Shown: one piece after another, positions 47,120 through 59,851 of the stretch | Numbering within the stretch: the stretch's first letter is position 1 | Layout of the letters: every line of letters begins with the position of its first letter | Origin: an uncultured Candidatus Pelagibacter sp. | Lineage (GTDB): Bacteria > Pseudomonadota > Alphaproteobacteria > Pelagibacterales > Pelagibacteraceae | Assembly: GCA_905616395.1 (NCBI GenBank) | Contig: CAJQSQ010000004.1 | Location: 1-64,000 of the forward strand | Reading direction: 5' to 3' | DNA length: 64,000 bases | The notes under the pieces: generated by a model | The model's database searches: none | What the model was told of the DNA's origin: nothing | The model's input: only the letters and a program-made list of their open reading frames with translations | Program-made: the position numbers and the translations under genes

Positions 47120-48066
47120 TGGCTATTGATAAAAAATATGTTGATCAAATCATAAAAGTTTCTGAAAAGGCTGCTCTAGCATCATCTTATTTGGTTGGAA
47201 AAAAGGACAAGATTGCAGCAGATCAAGCAGCTGTCGATTCAATGAGGTTTGAATTAAATAAAATAGATATGAATGGTGAAGTTGTTATTGGAGAAGGTTC
47301 ACTTGATGAAGCTCCAATGCTTTATACTGGTGAAAAACTTGGAAATAAAAACGGTCCATATTTTGATATTGCTGTTGATCCTTTAGAAGGAACAAATTTT
47401 GCAGCAAATAATTTACCTGGCGCAACTTCTGTTATTGCTATTGCTGAAAAAGGAAATCTTTTTAATGCACCAGAAACATATATGGATAAAATTGCAACTG
47501 GACCAATTCAGAAGGGATTAGTAGATCTAGATTTTACATTAAAAAAAAATGTTTCAAATCTGGCTGATTTTCTAAATAAAGATATATCATCACTCACAGC
47601 ATGTGTAATGGATAGGCCAAGACATAAAAAAATAATAGATGAACTAATGCAACTAAATATTAATATTAAATTAATTACCGATGGTGATGTACTTGGTGCA
47701 TTGTATGTTACAAATCCAAAATATAATGTTGATATATTTTTGGGTATAGGGGGTGGACCAGAGGGAGTTCTGGCTGCTTCAGCTCTTGATGCCTTTGACT
47801 GCAATTTTCAAGGAAGATTCATATTTGATAACGACAAAGATATTAAAGATGCAAAAAAAATGGGAATAATTGATTTAGATAAAAAATACGAATTAAATGA
47901 AATTATAAAAGGAGACTCTATATTTTGCTCTACAGGAATTACCTCTAGTGAGATGCTAGACGGAGTGAAGATTGACGGCAATAAGTATATAACTGAAACA
48001 CTCGCTACTCATAAAAGTTTAAAATTTAAAGAAATCATAAAAAGAACAAATTTTATTGAAGAATGA
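47119..48066 (+). CDS. glpX: class II fructose-1,6-bisphosphatase
   Basis: Makes fructose-6-phosphate in gluconeogenesis. It is 315 aa with VIGEGSLDEAPMLYTGE, AVDPLEGTNFAANNLPGA and GIGGGPEGVLAASALD, all typical for GlpX. The end overlaps recJ by four bases (ATGA); glpX-recJ adjacency is conserved in alphaproteobacteria. Confidence 0.95.
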   Translation: MAIDKKYVDQIIKVSEKAALASSYLVGKKDKIAADQAAVDSMRFELNKIDMNGEVVIGEGSLDEAPMLYTGEKLGNKNGPYFDIAVDPLEGTNFAANNLPGATSVIAIAEKGNLFNAPETYMDKIATGPIQKGLVDLDFTLKKNVSNLADFLNKDISSLTACVMDRPRHKKIIDELMQLNINIKLITDGDVLGALYVTNPKYNVDIFLGIGGGPEGVLAASALDAFDCNFQGRFIFDNDKDIKDAKKMGIIDLDKKYELNEIIKGDSIFCSTGITSSEMLDGVKIDGNKYITETLATHKSLKFKEIIKRTNFIEE

Positions 48067-49757
48067 TTTCTGTTTCAGGTAAGAATTGGGAACACAAAAA
48101 AATTAATCAAAATTTAGTAGATAAATTAAAACAGGATTTTGATTTTAGTGACACTTTATCCAGACTAATTATTTCACGAAAATTTGATGATGATGAAATT
48201 GCAACAATCCATACGAATTTAGATTTAAACAATGTTTTTTTAAATAATAAAGATTTCAATCAATCTATTAAGCTTGTTGTAAATTGTATCAATAACAAAG
48301 AAAAAATATGTATTTTGGGTGATTATGATGTGGATGGTTCAGCAGCCACTGCATTATTTGTGAAATTTTTAGAAAGCATAAATCACGCATTTTTTTATTA
48401 TATCCCAGATAGAGAAAAAGATGGGTATGGAGCCACCAAAAAACTGTTTCAAAAATTAATCTTAGACAAACCAAAACTAATTATAATGGTTGATTGTGGT
48501 TCTACTTCTAATGAAGCAATAGATTTTTTAAATGAAAATAAAATTAAATCCCTAATCATTGATCATCATGAAATTAATAATCCATTTCCAAATGCAAACT
48601 CAATTATAAATCCTAAAAAAGATAATGGCTATAAAGAATATGACTATCTATGCGCTACATCACTTTCTTATTTTTTCTTAGATTTACTAATTAAAGAAAT
48701 TAAAAGTGAAATAAATATATCAGATTATTTAATATATGTTTTATTAGCTACAGTGTGTGATGTGATGCCTTTAAGAAAGCTTAACAGATTAATTGCCTTA
48801 AATGCTCTTAAAAATTTTGATATAACAAAAAATTTACCTCTGAACACTTTGTTTGAATTAAATGAAAAAAAAAATAAAATTAATATTAATGATTTAGGTT
48901 ATTTAATTGGTCCTATATTGAATGCTGGCGGTAGACTAGGTAAGTCTCAATATGCTACAGAATTATTATCTTCTAATAATTATCAAGTTGTCAAAGATAG
49001 GTCTGATTATTTAATTAAATTAAATAATAAAAGAAAGGAAATTGAAACCTTAATATTAAATGAAATTGATTTTCAAAAAATCGAAAAAGAAAATAAAGAA
49101 GTAATTATTTATTATAATCCAAATATAAATGAAGGTTTAATTGGAATTATTGCAGCAAGATTAAAAGATTATTTTAATAAACCTTCCATTGTTATTACCA
49201 CGTCTAATGAATTATTAAAAGGATCAGCAAGATCAATTTATAATTATAATATTGGTCGTGTAATTAAAAATTCACTAGATCAATGTATAATTTTAAAAGG
49301 CGGTGGACACAATATGGCTGCAGGATTTACGCTAAATAAAGCAAACCTCAAAGATTTTGAAAATTATATATTAGAAGATTTTTTAGAATCTAATACTGTA
49401 AATAATAATATATTTTCATATGAATCAGAAGTTTCACCATTAGCATTTAATCAAGATTTTTATGATAATATAAAAAAATTAGAACCGTTCGGTACAGGAA
49501 ACTCAGTACCAACCTTCATGTTAAGAGATTTGAGAATAATTAAGCCCATATTATTGAATAACAAGCATATTTCTTCAATATTAAAATCAAAAACAGGATT
49601 TTCGATTAAATCAATATCATTTAATTCTATTAATACTAAGATTGGTGAGTGCTTAATGAACTATAAAAATAATATTAATGTAATAGGCCAAATCAATGAA
49701 AATATCTGGAATAATAAAAAAGCTCTTCAATTAACTATTAGAGACCTTATCTTATAG
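48063..49757 (+). CDS. recJ: single-stranded-DNA-specific exonuclease RecJ
   Basis: A 5'-3' exonuclease for recombination and mismatch repair. It is 564 aa with the DHH motifs ILGDYDVDGSAATALF, MVDCGSTSNEAI and IIDHHEIN, then ATVCDVMPL and the DHHA1 domain with LKGGGHNMAAGFT. The hom gene normally near glpX-recJ lies 12 kb downstream on the other strand. Confidence 0.96.
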   Translation: MISVSGKNWEHKKINQNLVDKLKQDFDFSDTLSRLIISRKFDDDEIATIHTNLDLNNVFLNNKDFNQSIKLVVNCINNKEKICILGDYDVDGSAATALFVKFLESINHAFFYYIPDREKDGYGATKKLFQKLILDKPKLIIMVDCGSTSNEAIDFLNENKIKSLIIDHHEINNPFPNANSIINPKKDNGYKEYDYLCATSLSYFFLDLLIKEIKSEINISDYLIYVLLATVCDVMPLRKLNRLIALNALKNFDITKNLPLNTLFELNEKKNKININDLGYLIGPILNAGGRLGKSQYATELLSSNNYQVVKDRSDYLIKLNNKRKEIETLILNEIDFQKIEKENKEVIIYYNPNINEGLIGIIAARLKDYFNKPSIVITTSNELLKGSARSIYNYNIGRVIKNSLDQCIILKGGGHNMAAGFTLNKANLKDFENYILEDFLESNTVNNNIFSYESEVSPLAFNQDFYDNIKKLEPFGTGNSVPTFMLRDLRIIKPILLNNKHISSILKSKTGFSIKSISFNSINTKIGECLMNYKNNINVIGQINENIWNNKKALQLTIRDLIL

Positions 49758-49807: not shown

Positions 49808-49882
49808 GGTCCCTTCGTCTATCGGTTAGGACAGCTGGTTTTCATCCTGCAAAGGGGGGTTCGATTCCCCCAGGGACCGCCA
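49808..49882 (+). tRNA. tRNA-Glu (anticodon UUC), one anticodon-stem mismatch
   Basis: 75 nt with acceptor GGTCCCT/AGGGACC, D arm GTCTATCGGTTAGGAC, anticodon loop TTTTCAT (TTC), T arm GGGGGTTCGATTCCCCC, discriminator G and an encoded CCA. The anticodon stem GCTGG/CCTGC has a T-T mismatch at its third pair. It marks the left edge of the glycan cluster. Confidence 0.94.
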
Positions 49883-49888
49883 TTAAAT

Positions 49889-50140
49889 ATGTATTATTAC
49901 ACATATATGCTTAAATCTATATCACCTGGTTTTAAAAAAACTTATGTAGGATATACAAATGATCTGGTTTCAAGACTAAATAAACATAATTCAAACAAAG
50001 GTGCAAAGTCTACAATGGGCTATAAATGGTTGTTAATTTATAGTAAAAAATTTAAAACAAAGAGTGAAGCTATGTCTTATGAATATAAATTAAAAAAAAA
50101 TAAAATATTACGAAAAGAAATTGTAGAAAAATCAACTTAA
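49889..50140 (+). CDS. GIY-YIG domain protein (UPF0213-like)
   Basis: An 83-aa single-domain GIY-YIG endonuclease-like protein. The motif appears as YYTYMLKS at 3-10 and KTYVGYTNDLVSRLNKHN at about 18-35, with the arginine and histidine of the family, and a C-terminal glutamate region AMSYEYKLKK. Its exact substrate is unknown. It begins seven bases after tRNA-Glu and overlaps the next glycosyltransferase by one base (TAATG), an odd partner for glycan genes. Confidence 0.88.
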   Translation: MYYYTYMLKSISPGFKKTYVGYTNDLVSRLNKHNSNKGAKSTMGYKWLLIYSKKFKTKSEAMSYEYKLKKNKILRKEIVEKST

Positions 50141-52254
50141 TGAAAATTTCAATACTTTTGCCATATAAAGAAAATTATTCTGTTAACTATGCTGGTGCTG
50201 TATCTTTATTCATAAATGACACAACAAAATTAAGCAAATTTAAGAAAAATATAAGAGTATTTGGTAGTACAAATTTCAAATCTAAACTATCAAAGAATTA
50301 TACAAATATAGATTTAAATAAGAGCAATTTATTACAAAGCCAAAGTAGAATTTATGTAAATAGATTTATTCAATTACAAGAAACTATTAATGCAGATATT
50401 ATTGAAATTCATAATAGACCAAATTATTTAAAATTTATTAAAAAACTTAATACAAAAATTGTTTTATATTTTCATAACGATCCACTTGAAATGGCTGGTT
50501 CTGAAAAAATTAATGAAAGATTAAACTTACTCAAAATATGTCAAAAAATTATTTTTAATAGTGAGTGGTCAAAAAATAGGTTTTTAGAAGGTTTAGAAAA
50601 ATTTTATAGTGGTAGTTCAAAACTAGAAGTTATAAATCAATCTACCAACAAACCAAAAATAGATTTTACAAAAAAAGATAAAATAATAACTTTTGTTGGA
50701 AAGTTAAATTCAGCAAAAGGCTACGATTTATTTGGTGGCGCAATATTAAGAATTTTAGAGAAACATAAGGATTGGAGTGGATTAGTTATTGGTGATGAAC
50801 CTCGTGAAAAATTAATCTTTAAACATAAAAACCTTAATATATTAGGTTTTCAAGAACATAAAAAAGTTCTAAGAATTCTTAAAAAAACGAGTATTGCTGT
50901 GGCTTGCTCAAGATGGCAGGAGCCTTTTGGTCGTACTAGTTTAGAGGCATCTAGTAGGGGGTGCGCTGTTATAATATCAAATAAGGGTGGTTTAACTGAG
51001 ACTATCACAAATGGTACTATACTTAAAAAAAATACAGTAAATAATATTTTTAATGCAATTGATGACTTGATAAAAAATAAAAAAAAATTATTAAATTTAC
51101 AAAAAAAATCACATGAAAATTTTTATTTAACTAATAAATATATAAGTAAAAAAATTGACATTTATAGATCATCCATATTAGATATAAAATCAAAATCAAA
51201 TTCTACCAAAAAATCAAAATTAAAGATTATTCATATAACAAATTTTAATGAAAGACATAATGGAAGATTATTTTATAATACTGGCAAAAGAATTAATAAC
51301 GGTTTAGTACGTTTGGGCCATAGTGTTTTGGAGTTTAGTGATAGAGATATTCTAAGTAATAATAGAAAATTGAATGATTTAAGTGGTGCAAAATATTTAA
51401 ATAAAAAATTACTTACAGTAATTGGTAATTACACACCTGACTTAATAATACTAGGACACGCTGATTTAATTAATATTCAAACTCTGAAAATTATTAAGCA
51501 ATATTATCCAGAAATAAAAATTGCTCAGTGGTTTTTAGATAGAATGGATTCAAATTGGATATTTAATAAAAAAAGATTTCTTGATAAAATTGATGTTATG
51601 GATGCAAGTTTTTGCACAACAAATCCAGATGTTTTGAAATTTTCTAAAAAAAATATGATTTACTATGTTCCTAATCCGGTAGATGAATCTTTTGAAACAT
51701 TGAATAATTATAAAAATAGAAATTTAAAAAATGATGTTTTTTTTGCAATGAGTCATGGAGTTCATAGAGGTATATTAAAAAAAGGAAAGTTTGATGAGCG
51801 TGAAAATCTCCTTAATAGATTAATCAATAAATTACCAAACATAAAGTTTGATATATATGGTATTGAAAATAAACAACCAGTATGGGCTGATAATTTTATT
51901 AAAGCTCTTTCTCAATCAAAGATTGCATTAAATTTAAGTCAAGGAAGTGGATCTAAGTACTATACTAGTGATAGATTTGCTCAATTGATAGGAAATGGAC
52001 TATTAGTGATGATTGACAAAAAGACTAAATTTGGTGATTTTTTTAATAAAGATGAGATCATTTTATATAAAGATATTAATGATTTAGCAAAAAAGATTAC
52101 AAAATACTCAAATGATGATGTATTAAGACAGAAAATTGCTAAAAAAGGCAGAGATAAATATTTTAAATTTTTTAATTCAACAATCGTTGCAGAGTTTATA
52201 ATAAATAAAACTTTTAATATTAATAAAAGATATTTTTGGGAAAATAAAAAATAA
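50140..52254 (+). CDS. double-headed glycosyltransferase (GT4 + CgeB-like)
   Basis: A 704-aa protein with two GT-B-type transferases in one chain. Residues 1 to about 350 are GT4-like, with ITFVGKLNSAKGYDLF and the EPFGRTSLE (E-x7-E) donor motif near 261-269. Residues 360-704 resemble CgeB/Glyco_trans_1_2, with PVDESFE and GSGSKYYTSDRFAQLIGNGLLV. It probably adds two successive sugars to a surface glycan. No membrane segments are visible. It is followed 15 bases later by an epimerase. Confidence 0.82.
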   Translation: MKISILLPYKENYSVNYAGAVSLFINDTTKLSKFKKNIRVFGSTNFKSKLSKNYTNIDLNKSNLLQSQSRIYVNRFIQLQETINADIIEIHNRPNYLKFIKKLNTKIVLYFHNDPLEMAGSEKINERLNLLKICQKIIFNSEWSKNRFLEGLEKFYSGSSKLEVINQSTNKPKIDFTKKDKIITFVGKLNSAKGYDLFGGAILRILEKHKDWSGLVIGDEPREKLIFKHKNLNILGFQEHKKVLRILKKTSIAVACSRWQEPFGRTSLEASSRGCAVIISNKGGLTETITNGTILKKNTVNNIFNAIDDLIKNKKKLLNLQKKSHENFYLTNKYISKKIDIYRSSILDIKSKSNSTKKSKLKIIHITNFNERHNGRLFYNTGKRINNGLVRLGHSVLEFSDRDILSNNRKLNDLSGAKYLNKKLLTVIGNYTPDLIILGHADLINIQTLKIIKQYYPEIKIAQWFLDRMDSNWIFNKKRFLDKIDVMDASFCTTNPDVLKFSKKNMIYYVPNPVDESFETLNNYKNRNLKNDVFFAMSHGVHRGILKKGKFDERENLLNRLINKLPNIKFDIYGIENKQPVWADNFIKALSQSKIALNLSQGSGSKYYTSDRFAQLIGNGLLVMIDKKTKFGDFFNKDEIILYKDINDLAKKITKYSNDDVLRQKIAKKGRDKYFKFFNSTIVAEFIINKTFNINKRYFWENKK

Positions 52255-52269
52255 CATTAAGGTCTATAT

Positions 52270-53142
52270 ATGAAAAATACAATAGTTATTACAGGTGGTG
52301 CAGGATTTATTGGATCAAATTTAATTAAATACATGTTAAAAAAAACTAATTTAAAAATTATCAGTTTAGATAATTACTCCACAGGAACTAAAATGAATCA
52401 TATTAATCATAAAAATGTTAAATATATAAAGGGTGAAAATATTAATATTTCAAAAATACTAAACCGCTATAAAAAAAAAATAAAAGTTATTTTTCATTTT
52501 GGAGAATTCTCAAGAATTTATCAAAGTTTTTTAAACTCAAAAAGATGCTTAAACTATAATATTAAACATTCATTTGAAGTTGTTAATTTTGCTAAGGATA
52601 ATAAAATTAAGATTATTTATTCTGCTACATCTAGTAATCTTGGTAACGGTGGTAAAGATGAGAATTTATCACCTTATTCTTGGTCTAAATCAAAAAATAT
52701 TGAATTGATAAAAAATTATAGTAAATGGTTTGATCTAAAATATGAATTAATATTTTTCTATAATGTTTATGGGCCTGGTCAAATTATGAACGGAAAAATG
52801 TCAGCTGTCATAGGTACTTTTGAAAAACTATATAAAAAAAGAAAGCCTTTAACTATTGTTAAACCAGGTTCACAAAAAAGAGATTTTACTCATATAGACG
52901 ATATTATAAAAGGTTGCTACTTAGCTATGATTAAAGGGAAACAAAATGAATATATGTTATGCACAAACAAATCATATTCAATCAAGCAAATCGCAAAAAT
53001 GTTTAATACTAAGTATAAATTTCTTAAGTCTAGGCCTGGTGAAAGATTTGGCTCAACTATATTAAACAATAATGCCAAAAAAATATTAGGATTTAAGGCA
53101 AAAAAAGATATCAAAACTTATATTGGAAACTTAATTAGATAA
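52270..53142 (+). CDS. NAD-dependent sugar epimerase/dehydratase (extended SDR)
   Basis: A 290-aa nucleotide-sugar modifying enzyme. The Rossmann motif TGGAGFIGSN is at 8-17, FHFGEFSR and the catalytic YSWSK (YxxxK) near 138-142, then NVYGPGQ and RDFTHIDDIIKG. The substrate is likely a UDP- or dTDP-sugar, possibly the UDP-Glc/UDP-Gal step supplying UDP-galactopyranose mutase. It lies in the glycan cluster between two transferases. Confidence 0.82.
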   Translation: MKNTIVITGGAGFIGSNLIKYMLKKTNLKIISLDNYSTGTKMNHINHKNVKYIKGENINISKILNRYKKKIKVIFHFGEFSRIYQSFLNSKRCLNYNIKHSFEVVNFAKDNKIKIIYSATSSNLGNGGKDENLSPYSWSKSKNIELIKNYSKWFDLKYELIFFYNVYGPGQIMNGKMSAVIGTFEKLYKKRKPLTIVKPGSQKRDFTHIDDIIKGCYLAMIKGKQNEYMLCTNKSYSIKQIAKMFNTKYKFLKSRPGERFGSTILNNNAKKILGFKAKKDIKTYIGNLIR

Positions 53143-53146
53143 ATTA

Positions 53147-54034
53147 ATGTTTTCAATCTTAATTCCTAGTTATAATAATTTGAATTATCTTAAATTGTGC
53201 ATAGAGAGCTTAGAGAAAAATTCGAAATTTGAACATCAAATTATAATTCATGTTAATGAAGGTTCGGATGGTACTCTTAATTATGTTCAAAAAAATAATT
53301 TTGATTACACTTATACATCTGAAAATATAGGGATGCCAAAAGCTTTAAATAAAGCATCAAAACTCGCAAATTTTGATTATATATTAATTTCACACGATGA
53401 TTTTTATTATTGTCCAGGGTGGGATACTGAATTTATAAATGAAATAAAAAAAATAAATCATAATAATTTTTATTTATCAGGAACCATGGTTGGTGCTGGT
53501 CAAGTATATTTTGATGCTGGACAATCCATAGAAACTTTTGATGAAAAAAAACTTATCAAAAATATTGAAACAATTAAGACATTTGATTTTCAAGGAACAA
53601 CAAAGTGTCCTGGTTTGGTACACAAAGATATTTGGAACAAAGTAGGGGGCTGGAGTGAAGAATTTTCCCCGACAGGTGGAGATGATAGTGATTTTGCAAT
53701 GAAACTATGGCAAAATAATATTAGAATTTTTAAAGGACTAGGAAGTAGTCTTGCGTATCATTTTGGATCTATTACTACTAGAAAAAAAAATAAAACTTTA
53801 TTTACATACTTGGGTAGTAAAGGAAATAAAATTTTTTTGAAAAAATGGGGAATTACTATTAATTTTTTTGAAAAATTCTATTTAAAGTCTGGTCTTGATG
53901 GAAATAAAAGACTTATTTTTAATAAATTTAGTGGACCATTAAATAATCCAAAAAAAAATTTGAACTTTTATATTAATCTTTTTAAAGGTAAAATTGTTAT
54001 GTTATATTTATCATTAATTAAATTTAAATATTAA
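53147..54034 (+). CDS. family 2 glycosyltransferase
   Basis: A 295-aa inverting GT-A enzyme. The N-terminal SILIPSYNNLNYLKLCIESL, the DxD-like ISHDDFYYCPGWD near 86-98 and WSEEFSPTGGDDSDFAMKLWQ are visible. There is no membrane segment. The acceptor and donor are unknown. It is one base from the following epimerase gene. Confidence 0.83.
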   Translation: MFSILIPSYNNLNYLKLCIESLEKNSKFEHQIIIHVNEGSDGTLNYVQKNNFDYTYTSENIGMPKALNKASKLANFDYILISHDDFYYCPGWDTEFINEIKKINHNNFYLSGTMVGAGQVYFDAGQSIETFDEKKLIKNIETIKTFDFQGTTKCPGLVHKDIWNKVGGWSEEFSPTGGDDSDFAMKLWQNNIRIFKGLGSSLAYHFGSITTRKKNKTLFTYLGSKGNKIFLKKWGITINFFEKFYLKSGLDGNKRLIFNKFSGPLNNPKKNLNFYINLFKGKIVMLYLSLIKFKY

Positions 54035-55033
54035 ATGAAAAAAATATTAATTACAGGTGTTGCTGGTTTATTGGGATCAAGGCTTTCTGATTGGATTATT
54101 GATAATACAAATTATGAGGTGATTGGTATTGATGATTTAAGTGGTGGTTTTATTGAGAATATAAATCCTAAAGTAAAGTTTTATAAATTTAACCTAACCA
54201 ATTTAAATAAACTAAAAGAAGTTTTTAAAAATGAAAATATCGAAATTGTTTATCATTTTGCTGCTTATGCGGCTGAAGGATTGAGCCCATTCATTAGAAA
54301 ATTTAATTATGAAAATAATATAATAGCTTCTTCAAATTTAATAACTTGCTCAATTGAATTTAATATAAAAAGATTTGTTTTTGCAAGCTCTATGGCCGTT
54401 TATGGAGATAAATACGAACCACCGTTTCACGAGGATCTTTTGCAGGCTCCAATAGACCCTTACGGTGTTGCAAAGTATGCTGTAGAAATGGATTTAAAAA
54501 TTGCATCACATCAACATGGATTAAATTACACCATTATTAGACCGCACAATTTTTATGGTATTAATCAAAATATTTGGGATAAATATAGAAATGTCTTGGG
54601 TATTTGGATGTATCAAATTCTAAATAAAGAAAGTCCTACAATTTTTGGAGATGGATCCCAAGTGAGAGCATTTAGTTACGTTGATGATTCAGTTATACCT
54701 TTTTGGAATGCATCTCAAAATGACAATTGCAAGGGTGAAATCATAAACTTAGGTGGTACTAAAGAATATTCTATAAGTGACGCTTGCAACATATTAATTA
54801 ATGTAACGGGCCAAAATATTAAACCAGTTTATTTGGAACCAAGGCACGAAAGTAAATATGCATGGGCAACATGGGATAAATCAATAGAACTCTTGGGTTT
54901 TGAACATAAAGTTAACCTTGAAGAAGGTACTGCAAAGATGTGGGAATGGGCAAAAAAACAACCTAACAGAGAAAGATACGTATGGCCTGAATATGAATTA
55001 AACAAAGGCATATATGAATATTGGAAAAGCTAA
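54035..55033 (+). CDS. NAD-dependent epimerase (UDP-glucose 4-epimerase-like)
   Basis: A 332-aa extended SDR with ITGVAGLLGSRL at 5-16, YHFAAYAAEGLSP, SSMAVYG, and catalytic YGVAK near 148-152, followed by RPHNFYGI and QVRAFSYVDD. The C-terminal region with WEWAKKQPNRERYVWPEYE is a longer tail than in GalE. It probably produces a galactose- or related NDP-sugar for this cluster. It is convergent with the next gene. Confidence 0.83.
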   Translation: MKKILITGVAGLLGSRLSDWIIDNTNYEVIGIDDLSGGFIENINPKVKFYKFNLTNLNKLKEVFKNENIEIVYHFAAYAAEGLSPFIRKFNYENNIIASSNLITCSIEFNIKRFVFASSMAVYGDKYEPPFHEDLLQAPIDPYGVAKYAVEMDLKIASHQHGLNYTIIRPHNFYGINQNIWDKYRNVLGIWMYQILNKESPTIFGDGSQVRAFSYVDDSVIPFWNASQNDNCKGEIINLGGTKEYSISDACNILINVTGQNIKPVYLEPRHESKYAWATWDKSIELLGFEHKVNLEEGTAKMWEWAKKQPNRERYVWPEYELNKGIYEYWKS

Positions 55034-55049
55034 ATATTAAGTGACTATA

Positions 55050-55895
55050 TTAAATTCTTTTTGAAGATTTCTGATTTAAAATCGAAGCGTACAAGCCTGA
55101 TCTTCGAGCTTTATACTTGCCATAATTAATTTTATCATTTTTTAATTTGTACAAAATTACTCGATAATTAATTCTAATAAAAATTGGAACAAAGTAAATA
55201 AGGGCAAAAAGAAATCCATAATGTTTTTTAAAATAATAAAATTTTGACCAAATAAAATGCCAAGTTCTAAAATTGACTTGATCTATTTTTTCTAGGTTAT
55301 TTTTAATTTCAACTGAAGTACCTACATCGTGTTCAACAAGGACATTATTAATTTGATAATTTTTATTTATCTTAAAGGATCTTAAGCAAAAGTCATTTTC
55401 CTCAAAATATAAAAAGATATTTTCATCAAATCCATTCAAATTATCAAAATTGTTTTTATTAAAAAACATGCATGCTCCACTAATAAATTTCATTTCGCTT
55501 ATTGTTCCATTATCAATACTTTGTTTGTGAGATTTGGGATTTGCGTTTATAAATCTAGGGCCTAAAGTGGAAAATTTATTATTTAGTTTTTTGGCAGCAT
55601 TTACGAAGTTAAGTAATGCCCCTTCATTTATACCTGTAAGATCTGGATTACTAATCAAAAAATACTCAGTTTTAACCATTTTGCTTCCATAATTTGCTTG
55701 GTTGCCATACCCATTATTGGGTATTAGCTGAATATCAATATCAGGATAATTGTTATCTATAATTGATTTTAAGCTAACATCATTTGAATTATCAATTATT
55801 ATAATTTTAAATTTTTTGTATAAGTTTTTAATATAATCTAAAACTAACTTTTTACTTTTATGTGTTAAGATAATTATTGTTGCATCATTATTCAT
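55050..55895 (-). CDS. family 2 glycosyltransferase (rhamnosyl/galactofuranosyl type)
   Basis: A 281-aa GT2 enzyme with TIIILTHKSKKLVLDYIK, IPNNGYGNQANYGSK and YFLISNPDLT, then ISGACMFFNKNNFDNLNGFDENIFLYFEE, typical of WbbL-like transferases. A C-terminal hydrophobic segment (FLFALIYFVPIFI) suggests membrane association. It is the only minus-strand glycan gene and diverges from the DUF4422 gene. Confidence 0.83.
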   Translation of the reverse strand: MNNDATIIILTHKSKKLVLDYIKNLYKKFKIIIIDNSNDVSLKSIIDNNYPDIDIQLIPNNGYGNQANYGSKMVKTEYFLISNPDLTGINEGALLNFVNAAKKLNNKFSTLGPRFINANPKSHKQSIDNGTISEMKFISGACMFFNKNNFDNLNGFDENIFLYFEENDFCLRSFKINKNYQINNVLVEHDVGTSVEIKNNLEKIDQVNFRTWHFIWSKFYYFKKHYGFLFALIYFVPIFIRINYRVILYKLKNDKINYGKYKARRSGLYASILNQKSSKRI

Positions 55896-55941
55896 TTACT
55901 TATGTTTTTTTTTATGGAATATATTTATAAAATTATTAATT

Positions 55942-56748
55942 ATGAATAAGTTGAAAATATACTGTTTTGTTACTAATGAGTCAAAATTTTTAAAAAAACT
56001 ACCGACTAATATTGTACCCGTTATTATAGGTAACAATAATTCCACTACTTTTCTTAGTGAGAATGTAGGTATAAATATCTCAAATTTAAACAAATATTAT
56101 GCTGAATTAACTGGTTTGTATTGGGTTTTCAAAAATAGAATTGCATATCATAATGATGATGATTTCGTAGGTTTTTGTCATTACAGAAGATTGTGGATGA
56201 ATGGAATTTTGAATAAAAAAATATCATTTTCGAACATTTATTCCAAACTATTGCAGAATAAAAATAAATCTTTAAATAATTTTGAAACTATATTAGTTGA
56301 TCCAATATATTTAAAAAATGAAAGTATAATAGGTCATTTTAATAACAACCATGGAAAAGAAATATTTGAATTTTTACATAAGATTTTAGATAAAAGTCTA
56401 TATAATGATTTTATAAATTATGGAAATCAAAAAAAATTTAGTCCTTGTAATATGTTTATAACCAAACCTAAAATTTTCATTAATTATTGCAATTTAATAT
56501 TTCCATTGATGGAGAAATTGTTAGAAGAATGTTTAAATAGGAATCTTTGTATTGGAAACAATTTAAAATTACCAGCCTACTTTATAGAGAGATTTACACC
56601 TTATTGGTTTGAAAAACATTCTAAAGTTGGTTATTTGTCTTACGCAGTATTAAATAATTTTTATATATCAGATGCTGTAAATAATATTATAAATCCTTTA
56701 AAATTACCCTTTACATCGTCATTTTTTCCTACAAAACTAGATATATAA
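55942..56748 (+). CDS. DUF4422 capsular-polysaccharide glycosyltransferase
   Basis: A 268-aa protein with the family hallmark YYAELTGLYWVFKN near 53-66 and DFVGFCHYRRLWM near 74-86. DUF4422 proteins occur in capsule and O-antigen clusters and are assumed to be galactosyltransferase-like. It is immediately followed by glf with no gap, consistent with galactose/galactofuranose transfer. Confidence 0.8.
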   Translation: MNKLKIYCFVTNESKFLKKLPTNIVPVIIGNNNSTTFLSENVGINISNLNKYYAELTGLYWVFKNRIAYHNDDDFVGFCHYRRLWMNGILNKKISFSNIYSKLLQNKNKSLNNFETILVDPIYLKNESIIGHFNNNHGKEIFEFLHKILDKSLYNDFINYGNQKKFSPCNMFITKPKIFINYCNLIFPLMEKLLEECLNRNLCIGNNLKLPAYFIERFTPYWFEKHSKVGYLSYAVLNNFYISDAVNNIINPLKLPFTSSFFPTKLDI

Positions 56749-57879
56749 ATGTTCAAAGCAGATGTAATTATAGTTGGTGCTGGCCCAGTAGGCTGTGTTT
56801 TAGCAAATAAAATTGCTACTGAATTAAACTTATCTTGTTTAATAATTGAAAAAAGAAATCATATTGCAGGAAACTGTTATGATGAAAAAAATAAAAAAGG
56901 AGTTTTATACCACAAATATGGACCACATTATTTAAGATTTAAAAATAATAAAATTTTTGAATATTTATCTAAATTTACTAAATGGATACCTGGCAATTAT
57001 ATTGTGCAATCTTTTGTAGATAAAAAACTTTATCCATTTCCGATTAATTTGAATACACTTGAGAAATTTTTTAATATTAAATTTAAATCAAAAAAAGAAG
57101 CAATTGATTTTATTAAAAAAAAACAAATTAAAAATAAGAGTTTAAATAATTCAGAAGATTTTATCCTATCAAAACTTGGCACTGAAATTTATGAAAAATT
57201 CTATAAAAATTATACAATAAAGCAATGGGGTGTTAGTCCAAAAAAATTATCTAGCACTGTCGCTGGCCGTGTTCCTATTAGATATGATCGTAATCCTTAT
57301 TATGTTAAAGAAAAACTTAAATTTATGCCAAGACAGGGTTTTACACTTATGTTTAAAAAAATGATTACTAATAAAAAAATTAAATTATCTTTAAATACAG
57401 ATTTTTTTAAAATTAGAAAACAAATAAAATATAATAAATTTTTAATATATACAGGTACACCCGATAAATTTTTTAATTATAAATATGGTAAGCTTGATTG
57501 GCGATCTTTAGCTTTTAAATTTGAAACATATAAAAAAAATTTGATACAAAATTCAGTACAATATAATTTTCCAAATGATTTTAAATTTACTAGAAAAGTT
57601 GAAATTAAGCACGTTACTAGACAAAAAATTCCATTCACAGTTATTTCAAAAGAATTTCCTAAAAGTAAAGGCGAACCTTATTATCCTATAATAAACAAAA
57701 ATAACCTAAATAAATTTTCTAAATATGAAAAATTAATAAAAAAAGTTGAAAATAAGAATGTATTTTTTGAAGGTAGGCTTGCTCAATATAAATATTTTAA
57801 TACAGATGAGGTAATTGAAAGAGCATTAAACTTATTTAAGATTTTAAAAAAAAAATATAAAAATAATTCTAATAATTAA
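56749..57879 (+). CDS. glf: UDP-galactopyranose mutase
   Basis: Converts UDP-galactopyranose to UDP-galactofuranose with reduced FAD. It is 376 aa, with the FAD motif VIIVGAGPVG at 6-15, EKRNHIAGNCYDE, GPHYLRF and YTIKQWGVSP. ARG-type substrate residues follow in VAGRVPIRYDRNPYYV and GRLAQYKYFNTDE. It implies that the cluster makes a galactofuranose-containing polymer. Its stop overlaps the recombinase stop. Confidence 0.93.
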   Translation: MFKADVIIVGAGPVGCVLANKIATELNLSCLIIEKRNHIAGNCYDEKNKKGVLYHKYGPHYLRFKNNKIFEYLSKFTKWIPGNYIVQSFVDKKLYPFPINLNTLEKFFNIKFKSKKEAIDFIKKKQIKNKSLNNSEDFILSKLGTEIYEKFYKNYTIKQWGVSPKKLSSTVAGRVPIRYDRNPYYVKEKLKFMPRQGFTLMFKKMITNKKIKLSLNTDFFKIRKQIKYNKFLIYTGTPDKFFNYKYGKLDWRSLAFKFETYKKNLIQNSVQYNFPNDFKFTRKVEIKHVTRQKIPFTVISKEFPKSKGEPYYPIINKNNLNKFSKYEKLIKKVENKNVFFEGRLAQYKYFNTDEVIERALNLFKILKKKYKNNSNN

Positions 57880-58832
57880 ATTTTAATTTTATTTAAGGCA
57901 TTATTTTTAAACAAGTTTGCTTCTTTAATATATCTTCTTACCATTTCTGAAGATTTATGTCCTGTCATTGACATAATGCTTCTTTCTTCCACTCCAGATT
58001 CAGCCGCAGATGTTGCAAATCCTGATCTTAAACTATGACCAGAAAAATTTTTACTATCTATTCCAGCTAAATTTAAATATTCTTTAATAAGCAAAGCTAC
58101 AGTTTGGTTTGTTAATCTTTTTTCTGATAACTTTGATCCCTTAACAAACCTTCTAAATACGGGTCCTGATTTTATTTTTGATAGATCGAGTAGTTTTTTT
58201 AATGATACAACGGGACAATATTGAGAGCTATCAAAGTAGGGTAGAGCTTTCATAAAACCTTCACCAAATTGATCGGTTTTAGACCTTCTAATGCTTAATT
58301 TTAAACCCTCTGGAACAAAATCTAGATCATCATAATCTAGTGAAACTATCTCATTTCTTCTAAATCCACCTGAAAAACCAATTAGGATTATAGATCTATC
58401 CCTTAATTTTTTAATTTCTTCTTTTTTTTGCTGATCTATTGCATTAATTATTTTTTTTAAACTATTGATTAATATGGGTTTTTTAGCTTTCTGAAAACTA
58501 CCTTTTCTTCTTTTAATACCCATAATATTTTCAATGATTGCAGGATGCTTTGTATCTAAATAATGCCCTTTTAACTTATGGATGACACCTATTGATACAA
58601 GTCTGCGCTTCAAAGTGCTCATTTTAGCATCTTTTGTGGATAAATGAGTTAAATATAAAGAAACTACTTTTGGTTCAGATGGTAGTGATTTGAATCCATT
58701 TTGTGCACAGAACACTCCAAAATCACTAAAGTCTGATTTATATGCTCTTACAGTATTACTAGCTTTAGAGTTTTGCAGGTTTATTAATGTTTCTTCTTGT
58801 AAAGCCTTTATGTCAGTTATTATATCATTCAT
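57876..58832 (-). CDS. tyrosine site-specific recombinase/integrase
   Basis: A 318-aa recombinase with an N-terminal SAM-like core-binding domain and a complete catalytic set: R158 (GGFRRNEI), K185 (RRSKTDQ), H266 and R269 (SGHSLRSG), H292 (TGHKSSE) and the nucleophile Y301. XerC/D-like and integrase-like proteins are similar at this length. It faces the glycan cluster. A dif-like inverted repeat lies 10 bases upstream of its start. Confidence 0.92.
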   Translation of the reverse strand: MNDIITDIKALQEETLINLQNSKASNTVRAYKSDFSDFGVFCAQNGFKSLPSEPKVVSLYLTHLSTKDAKMSTLKRRLVSIGVIHKLKGHYLDTKHPAIIENIMGIKRRKGSFQKAKKPILINSLKKIINAIDQQKKEEIKKLRDRSIILIGFSGGFRRNEIVSLDYDDLDFVPEGLKLSIRRSKTDQFGEGFMKALPYFDSSQYCPVVSLKKLLDLSKIKSGPVFRRFVKGSKLSEKRLTNQTVALLIKEYLNLAGIDSKNFSGHSLRSGFATSAAESGVEERSIMSMTGHKSSEMVRRYIKEANLFKNNALNKIKI

Positions 58833-58841
58833 ATATATATA

Positions 58842-58874
58842 TTACTATTGATAACCATTAATTATCGTTAGTAA
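58842..58874. promoter_or_regulatory. candidate recombinase core site: 13-bp inverted arms, 7-bp spacer
   Basis: TTACTATTGATAA (58842-58854) and TTATCGTTAGTAA (58862-58874) match as reverse complements at 11 of 13 positions around the spacer CCATTAA. The inner GATAA/TTATC ends and the spacer length resemble dif and other tyrosine-recombinase core sites. It may be the attachment site, an autoregulatory operator, or both. Confidence 0.5.
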
Positions 58875-58917
58875 TATATTAAGTTGTTTATGTTGTCAAT
58901 ATGTTAAAATATATAAA

Positions 58918-59112
58918 ATGAATAAAATATTTATTATTATAAGCATTATCGGGTCATCCTTTTTCTTTATATCCATAATAGATCATCCAAATTTAATAGC
59001 CTGGGGAATACATTCTATACCAATAAAAGACGGTTTGTTTTTAGCTTTTTTGCCAATTATTTTATTTAATATAGCTGGATGGATAAGAAAAATTTTTACT
59101 AAAAATAGATAA
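58918..59112 (+). CDS. small membrane protein, 64 aa
   Basis: Two hydrophobic segments (about residues 4-22 and 40-55) with a basic end KIFTKNR. It starts 43 bases from the recombinase-site repeat and is divergent from the recombinase. No family is recognised. It may be cargo of the same accessory region. Confidence 0.55.
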   Translation: MNKIFIIISIIGSSFFFISIIDHPNLIAWGIHSIPIKDGLFLAFLPIILFNIAGWIRKIFTKNR

Positions 59113-59154
59113 AAATGTTAAATATCAACTATTTAAAGTTTAAAATTTAAGTAA

Positions 59155-59592
59155 ATGATTAGAAAGTTAGAGCAAAAAGACAAGGAAAATTGGGCTAAAT
59201 TATACAATGGTTATGCCGATTTCTACAAAGTCCCAATGAATACGGGGGTTTTAGACACTCTTTGGGGATGGATTCATGATGAAAGCCACGATGTTAAAGG
59301 TCTTTGCTTTGAATTAGAGGATAAAATCGTTGCTATTGCTCATTATAGAACAATGCCAAGACCAATCAAAGGTCAATATATTGGGTTTTTAGATGATTTG
59401 TTCGTAGACCCAGATTTTAGAGGTCAAAAAATAGCGCAAAAGCTTATTAGTCATCTAAAATCCTTATCTAAAGCCAATAATTGGCAAGGAGTTCGTTGGA
59501 TCACCCACTCTAGCAATGAACATGCAAAGAAATTATACGATAAAATAGCCAATAACACAGGTTTTGAACTCTATGAACTTAAAGGGGACTAA
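59155..59592 (+). CDS. GNAT-family N-acetyltransferase
   Basis: A 145-aa acetyl-CoA-dependent acetyltransferase with FLDDLFVDPDFRGQKIAQKL (motif A, Q/RxxGxG/A) near 81-100 and HAKKLYDKIANNTGF. The substrate is unknown. The codon use and GC content look slightly higher than the neighbouring glycan genes. It overlaps the following MGMT-type gene by up to 29 bases. Confidence 0.85.
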   Translation: MIRKLEQKDKENWAKLYNGYADFYKVPMNTGVLDTLWGWIHDESHDVKGLCFELEDKIVAIAHYRTMPRPIKGQYIGFLDDLFVDPDFRGQKIAQKLISHLKSLSKANNWQGVRWITHSSNEHAKKLYDKIANNTGFELYELKGD

Positions 59593-59851
59593 GTTTCAGC
59601 TAAAAGTCTGGAATTACTTGAAGAAAATACCCAAAGGTAAAGTGAAGACTTATAAGGATGTTGCTAAAGCCATTGGAAAACCTCTAGCAGTCAGAGCAGT
59701 CGCTAATGCTATAGGTAAAAACCCCTATCCTCCTAAAATACCTTGTCATCGAGTGATCAGATCAGATGGAAGCCTCGGCGGATACTCTGGAAAAGGAGGA
59801 ATTCAACAAAAACGCCGTTTATTGAGGTCTGAAAGAGTCTTCATAAAATAA
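59564..59851 (+). CDS. MGMT-family DNA alkyltransferase-type protein (C-terminal domain only)
   Basis: A 95-aa protein consisting of the Ogt/Ada C-terminal domain: KVWNYLKKIPKGKVKTYKDVA, AVRAVANAIGKNP and the active-site PCHRV with C61, then GGYSGKGG. The acceptor cysteine is present, so it can be a methyltransferase rather than an alkyltransferase-like protein. The N-terminal domain of full Ogt is missing. The alternative start at 59573 (MNLKGTKF) is equally plausible. Confidence 0.88.
   Translation: MNSMNLKGTKFQLKVWNYLKKIPKGKVKTYKDVAKAIGKPLAVRAVANAIGKNPYPPKIPCHRVIRSDGSLGGYSGKGGIQQKRRLLRSERVFIK

Follow-up and report, generated by a model that had tools for sequence, protein, structure and literature searches.

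The window analysed here is a stretch of 64,000 nucleotides from an uncultured Candidatus Pelagibacter sp. (assembly GCA_905616395.1, contig CAJQSQ010000004.1, positions 1 to 64,000 of the forward strand), and the source genome comprises 1.13 Mb across 43 contigs. The organism belongs to SAR11, the most abundant bacterial group in the ocean. Toward the end of the window, a tRNA-Glu gene is followed by sugar-modifying genes, a tyrosine recombinase gene and a dif-like inverted repeat immediately upstream of that gene. The original prediction for this region, an island integrated at the tRNA by the recombinase, named its parts correctly: tRNA, open reading frame and family scans recovered the tRNA-Glu, the sugar genes and the full-length recombinase. 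The 35-bp inverted repeat was not mentioned there. The recombinase and its repeat, and their possible role in resolving chromosome dimers, are the main subject of this report. The features concerned are as follows.

57876-58832, minus strand: full-length tyrosine recombinase of the Cre/Xer type (PF00589), proposed SAR11 chromosome dimer resolvase
58841-58875, minus strand: dif-like inverted repeat ATTACTAACGATAA-TTAATGG-TTATCAATAGTAAT, with the inner 11+7+11 bp at 58844-58872
58894-58899, minus strand: TTGACA, likely -35 box of the putative recombinase promoter

The recombinase gene was identified in 109 of 147 genomes of the family, in 48 of the 54 good-quality ones and in 13 of 14 genera, with one full copy per genome in nearly all carriers. 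The best 80 named loci all belong to Pelagibacteraceae, Pelagibacterales or Pelagibacter, including Ca. Pelagibacter ubique HTCC9565. The residues R158, K185, H266, R269, H292 and Y301, whose catalytic roles were assigned from an alignment with XerD plus general knowledge, are invariant in 15 aligned orthologues, giving the protein a full set of catalytic residues. The recombinase scores 66.7 and 74.1 bits against TIGR02224 and TIGR02225, below their curated cut-offs of 335 and 330. When the XerD model was run against 24 genomes of the genus (the window's own genome and those at least 95% complete), it picked this recombinase in 23 of them at 67-78 bits, none above the cut-off, and gave weak second matches in two genomes (22.8 and 24.2 bits). 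In a sister family of the same order, nine of 10 genomes have at least two XerD-model matches; an XerD-like protein scores 307-325 bits in all 10 and a second, XerC-like protein scores 244-258 bits in nine. The XerD cut-off was passed by only 4 of 22 outside genomes, and bit strength is therefore the better contrast.

The inverted repeat accompanies the gene. The motif GATAA-N7-TTATC lies before the gene, within a longer inverted repeat, at 70 of 70 loci (50 distinct sequences). Its 17-bp core, GATAATTAATKGTTATC, is nearly invariant among the 50 distinct sequences, with an A at the K position once and a T for an inner A once, and both arms are changed together to CCGATAA / TTATCGG in four of them. 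The site was found at all 80 named loci, within 90 bp of the match start at 79 and about 100 bp upstream at the last. The window holds one site match (0.07 expected); a second copy was found neither there nor in any of the 80 named loci, which span up to 21 kb. With one mismatch allowed, the core occurs in 31 of 36 genus genomes and in none of 24 others; it is found once in 29 of these 31 and twice in two, the second copy being a one-mismatch match. A reversed control pattern gave a single match across the 60 genomes. In all nine core-positive genomes with recombinase coordinates, the site lies at the recombinase. It agrees with the usual form of a dif site, a palindrome of about 28-31 bp that is intergenic, low in G+C and beside the gene. 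Comparison of relatives showed that TTGAC precedes GATAA by a fixed distance in all 50 distinct sequences (33 bp in 48 and 34 bp in two), and transcription therefore probably starts inside the dif-like site. A generic consensus promoter and terminator scan at the site gave nothing above chance and did not call the TTGACA box.

Some loci depart from this arrangement. In L009 and L053 (both from genome G017) and in L238, a longer stretch separates the site from the matched start downstream of it (65 bp in L009 and about 100 bp in L238); the recombinase there may begin elsewhere or have an extended N-terminus. One genus genome without the 17-bp core encodes an XerD-like match of 67.5 bits in a 464-aa open frame (G201:C7:21336-22190), which may be this recombinase with its 5' end fused or changed.

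Both GC skew and distance from dnaA place the gene and its site at the replication terminus. For the 186-kb contig that contains the window, the cumulative GC-skew maximum lies at 57,823, 1.0 kb from the site centre at 58,858. In the complete genome of a relative (G026), a dense scan over 281 kb placed the maximum at 995,999, 2.8 kb from the site at about 998,845. With sampled skew (20 x 20 kb), the peak bin of G026 contains the gene, and the peak of genomes G005 and G043 is the last bin before it. The main coding strand switches at the gene in all three genomes, and in G026 and G005 the strand-adjusted third-position skew still reverses close to it. In 11 complete genomes from four genera, the gene is located at 0.418-0.486 of the circle from dnaA, measured along the shorter arc. 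The FtsK gamma domain was identified in all 12 family genomes tested.

Outside SAR11, the relatives of the recombinase are mainly plasmid genes. A total of 2412 of 72,556 plasmid records were matched, the best sharing 45.0% identity over 94%. A phage origin was considered and rejected: only 9 of 50,697 phage records matched, with at most 27% identity. A search of 289 alphaproteobacterial genomes at E 1e-30 found the recombinase family in 16 that lie outside SAR11's family, which indicates that it is scattered and not inherited by the class. In a tree of 73 proteins, 18 SAR11 and 25 plasmid proteins are separated from 30 XerC/XerD-like proteins by a split with 100/100 support. The predicted structure (predicted local distance difference test, pLDDT, 71.7) has Cre as its first match (E 1e-12, template modelling score about 0.7, 16-20% identity), with XerH and XerA later. 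By sequence, the best PDB chains are archaeal Xer and XerD, followed by Cre. A plasmid relative from Rickettsiales (Ac37b; CP009219.1, 828-1688), annotated as XerC, shares 35% identity with the SAR11 protein.

The plasmid relatives also share the site. A sample of 25, nine of them among the highest-ranking matches and 16 selected to be diverse, was drawn from 85 records at E 1e-40. GATAA-N6/7-TTATC is present upstream in eight of them (L228, L229, L231, L319, L321, L324, L326 and L327, from several phyla), whereas 200 Markov shuffles gave 0.04 on average and never more than 1. These sites lie 126 to 542 bp ahead of the aligned gene match. In Mesobacillus, both 11-bp arms, ACTAACGATAA and TTATCAATAGT, are identical to those of the window, and the centre is TATATAG versus TTAATGG. 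The Runella plasmid site reads ATTACTTATGATAA-ATGAACG-TTATCATAAGTAAT. The same motif upstream of plasmid relatives provides an independent tie between site and recombinase, and the plasmid recombinase with its upstream inverted repeat is apparently a plasmid dimer-resolution module.

Five features can be read directly from the sequences: the conservation of the gene, the lack of a strong XerC or XerD in the genus genomes scanned, the site, the terminus position and the plasmid kinship of both protein and site. On these grounds, the recombinase and the inverted repeat very probably constitute a plasmid-type single-recombinase/dif module for chromosome dimer resolution in SAR11. Catalysis and dimer resolution would, we infer, proceed as follows. 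Crossovers made by RecA would fuse sister chromosomes, and the two dif copies would meet at the closing septum, where FtsK, whose gamma domain is kept, probably brings them together. On each site, recombinase protomers would occupy both 11-14 bp arms (..CGATAA / TTATC..); cleavage flanking the 7-bp centre, followed by strand exchange, would then yield two monomers. The promoter probably overlaps the site, and the recombinase, once bound there, probably represses its own gene. In Ca. P. ubique HTCC1062, the gene annotated as xerD is SAR11_1019, which we take from gene order to be the recombinase studied here. It is listed with recA among genes responding to sulfur depletion, and xerD and recA go up in light in the expression data. 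This co-listing suits a role in dimer resolution without proving it. The main text of PMC2704228, on structured RNA in P. ubique, does not mention xerD, recombinase or integrase.

The module probably reached the SAR11 ancestor from a plasmid together with its site, with XerC and XerD lost afterwards. On balance, the evidence favours a broader scenario in which the ancestor dropped XerC/XerD, adopted a Cre-type plasmid dimer resolvase with its site and fixed both at the terminus, and in which the terminus is a landing site for plasmid-type elements. Plasmids of today still have sites whose arms are the same, so that elements of plasmid type would find a suitable place to insert at the SAR11 terminus. 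If so, this may help to explain the crowding of variable genes on both sides of it.

Several observations weigh against the dimer resolution module. The recombinase has no match in 38 of 147 family genomes, six of the 54 good ones among them, and 13 of 15 tested family genomes missing the gene or the site have no XerD-like gene at all, which points either to breaks in the assemblies at this place or to lineages that manage without the module. A variable place where assemblies have gaps explains these cases better than an overlooked XerCD pair does, though some lineages may have lost the gene. At the terminus, part of the raw skew reflects gene orientation, the strand-adjusted third-position skew is noisy in G043, and synteny makes the positions in different genomes non-independent. 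The polarity of motifs resembling FtsK-orienting polar sequences (KOPS) is weak, with GGGNAGGG at 7/1, 4/0 and 1/1, counts too low to judge. Support in the tree is modest for both the SAR11 group (87/93) and the plasmid group (83/51), so the transfer may have run in either direction. The strict motif was not found within 600-800 bp upstream in 17 of the 25 plasmid relatives, including Alicyclobacillus, the closest by identity, and the site there may lie elsewhere, have other letters or be absent. Finally, within SAR11 the 7-bp centre is conserved as much as the inner arms, and an inverted repeat on a promoter could be merely an operator.

The sugar genes next to this module were compared in 40 relatives, each represented by 19.5 kb around the recombinase (14.5 kb in one). 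The features of the glycan locus and its frame are listed below.

49808-49882, plus strand: tRNA-Glu(ttc) (RF00005), left border of the locus, in 28 of the 40 relatives' stretches
49889-50140, plus strand: stand-alone GIY-YIG protein (PF01541), conserved left frame, in 35 of 40 relatives
50140-52254, plus strand: two-domain glycosyltransferase of 704 aa (PF00534 and PF13524), left frame of the glycan locus
52270-57879, mixed strands: variable sugar block as a whole, made up of the next six genes
52270-53142, plus strand: sugar epimerase/dehydratase of the short-chain dehydrogenase/reductase (SDR) type
53147-54034, plus strand: family 2 glycosyltransferase (GT2)
54035-55033, plus strand: second SDR epimerase
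55050-55895, minus strand: GT2
55942-56748, plus strand: DUF4422 protein, in 0 of 40 relatives' stretches
56749-57879, plus strand: glf-like UDP-galactopyranose mutase, in 0 of 40 relatives' stretches
59155-59592, plus strand: GNAT acetyltransferase (PF00583), right frame and itself variable, in 7 of 40 relatives
59564-59851, plus strand: MGMT-like protein (name assigned from sequence), right frame, in 35 of 40 relatives

The frame is mostly fixed in SAR11 relatives, with the tRNA-Glu, the GIY-YIG gene and the glycosyltransferase on one side and the recombinase on the other. A glycosyltransferase homologue is present in 38 of 40 stretches and stands in the frame position in 36, six of these with a match of about half length only. 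In these 36 loci, the gap between glycosyltransferase and recombinase ranges from 2 to 6076 bp (median 1917), compared to 5622 bp in the window. L061 and L072, without a glycosyltransferase match, and L074 and L087, with the glycosyltransferase before the GIY-YIG gene, are outside this count. The gap is below 100 bp in eight of the 36 loci (L058, L064, L066, L069, L071, L084, L085 and L086), leaving no sugar gene between the glycosyltransferase and the recombinase. Sugar content thus varies from none to about 6 kb, but the recombinase does not vary with it. On the other side, the interval from the dif-like site to the MGMT-like gene (58876-59592 in the window) is also variable, holding a GNAT gene in seven of 40 relatives and other sequence in the rest; variable genes therefore lie on both sides of the site.

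The glf-like protein scores 191.8 bits against PF03275 (cut-off 26.3) and 297.7 bits against TIGR00031, slightly below the cut-off of 303.75, and glf was matched at E <1e-13 in eight of 101 genus genomes, including that of the window. Neither SDR protein reached an equivalog cut-off in the family-model scan, and no Pfam families of flippases, polymerases or exporters were found among the eight proteins from the tRNA to the recombinase. The galactofuranose polymer suggested earlier depends on one gene, the glf-like one, and a complete pathway for such a polymer is at most conjectural. A foreign composition of the sugar block was considered and rejected: its G+C content is 0.21-0.30, against 0.23-0.35 elsewhere in 40-64 kb, and its edge is not sharp. 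Among structured RNAs, only tRNAs reached Rfam thresholds in the window. The GIY-YIG gene begins 6 bp past the tRNA-Glu. RecJ, encoded at 48063-49757 of the window, is patchy in the genus, with a match in 16 of 101 genomes (two of them weak fragments only), and recJ was not found between glpX and the tRNA-Glu in many relatives.

The sugar genes are a replaceable surface-glycan locus that adjoins the terminus and is separate from the recombinase module. Their variability is probably due to place and function, and their exchange probably occurs via homologous recombination in the conserved flanks and not via the recombinase. Exchange through conserved flanks has been proposed for other replacement islands (PMC4033161). 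The O-chain cluster of Pelagibacterales (hypervariable region 2, HVR2) likewise holds variable surface-glycan genes at a fixed place; however, PMC11898729 and PMC2217521 put it between the 23S and 5S rRNA genes, whereas the locus in the window is at the terminus.

Three other explanations of the recombinase and its repeat were weighed. An integrase role for the recombinase, as part of a genomic island inserted at tRNA-Glu with the glycan genes as its cargo, is extremely unlikely. The geometry of tRNA, cargo and recombinase and the variation of the cargo among relatives agree with it, but a search of the 64 kb for the last 14-24 bp of the tRNA, allowing up to two mismatches, found them at the tRNA and nowhere else. 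The original prediction had itself remarked on this missing second copy. Furthermore, the recombinase remains in place without the cargo at the eight loci with gaps below 100 bp, is a core gene kept across the family and forms a single SAR11 group in the tree, and the tRNA-Glu was not found in 12 of 40 stretches. The recombinase's own site occurs once in the window and usually once per genome, and it flanks the gene at the end away from the sugar genes. Of the earlier interpretation, the evidence supports a surface-glycan locus of varying content within a backbone that is for the most part conserved; it does not support an island integrated at the tRNA by the recombinase. A gene-capture hub, in which the site would resemble an integron attachment site or the target of integrative mobile elements exploiting Xer (IMEX) and Xer-type recombination would bring in the variable genes, is very improbable as well. 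Variable genes do flank the recombinase on both sides, GNAT among them on the site side, and dif regions are said to favour DNA mobility (PMC2731167), but the site is single in the window and in the 80 named loci, and the sugar genes lie 3' of the recombinase gene, away from it. An integron in particular was rejected: the sugar genes are on the 3' side and not on the attI (5') side, and one site copy is present in the window (attC was not searched as such).

The repeat could instead be an autoregulatory operator only, with the recombinase having another role, for instance one left over from a plasmid or phage. In favour of this, the likely promoter and the repeat overlap, with the spacing from TTGAC fixed, promoter palindromes are commonly operators, and the 7-bp centre hardly varies within SAR11. 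However, the repeat sits at the GC-skew maximum, no strong XerC/D was found elsewhere in the genus genomes scanned, and the plasmid layout, 126 to 542 bp before the gene match, is unlike an operator at a fixed promoter position. Between SAR11 and Mesobacillus the centre differs while the 11-bp arms are identical, as expected for recombination sites. We consider the operator explanation unlikely.

If the dimer resolution module is correctly identified, the site would serve as a terminus marker for SAR11 genomics, the recombinase and site would be a testable pair, and a broad family of apparently uncharacterised plasmid modules would come into view. It would also caution that a recombinase adjoining variable genes need not move them. 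A 2009 survey that included a 1.3-Mb P. ubique genome found no dif/Xer system in P. ubique (PMC2731167). No description of a SAR11 dif was found among the listed titles and abstract beginnings from the open-licence PMC literature, and no paper in that literature joins 'Cre-like recombinase' and 'chromosome dimer resolution'.

Among known systems, XerS/difSL of streptococci and XerH/difH of Helicobacter and Campylobacter likewise have a single recombinase with dif beside its gene at the terminus, as described in PMC2731167 and PMC5357621. XerS and XerH are about 354-362 aa long versus 318 aa for the SAR11 protein, difSL and difH differ from the SAR11 site in sequence, and the centre is 11 bp in difSL versus 7 bp in SAR11. 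The SAR11 recombinase is akin to plasmid recombinases, and XerH is a weaker fold match than Cre. According to PMC9765430, XerL/dif of Legionellales is also a single-recombinase system, with long inverted repeats, in an order said to be without dif/Xer; however, XerL is experimentally proven and longer (catalytic tyrosine Y387), whereas the SAR11 system is predicted here from sequence.

The plasmid relatives of the SAR11 protein include 'site-specific integrases' from Alicyclobacillus, Mesobacillus, Runella, Hymenobacter and Protochlamydia, among others; those named share 34-45% identity with it over more than 90% of the length. Unlike the SAR11 module, they are located on plasmids, with the site further upstream and another centre sequence, and their function there is putative. 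Cre, which resolves plasmid dimers, is the best fold match of the SAR11 recombinase. Compared to Cre/loxP of the phage-plasmid P1, the SAR11 module has a different site sequence, is chromosomal, lies at the terminus with FtsK present, and has a 7-bp centre; that of loxP is 8 bp. According to Carnoy and Roten (PMC2731167), Cre/loxP at the terminus can suppress the dif defect of E. coli. If the SAR11 recombinase and its repeat do resolve chromosome dimers, they would be a natural counterpart of this artificial swap, and SAR11 would have kept dimer resolution and changed the enzyme.

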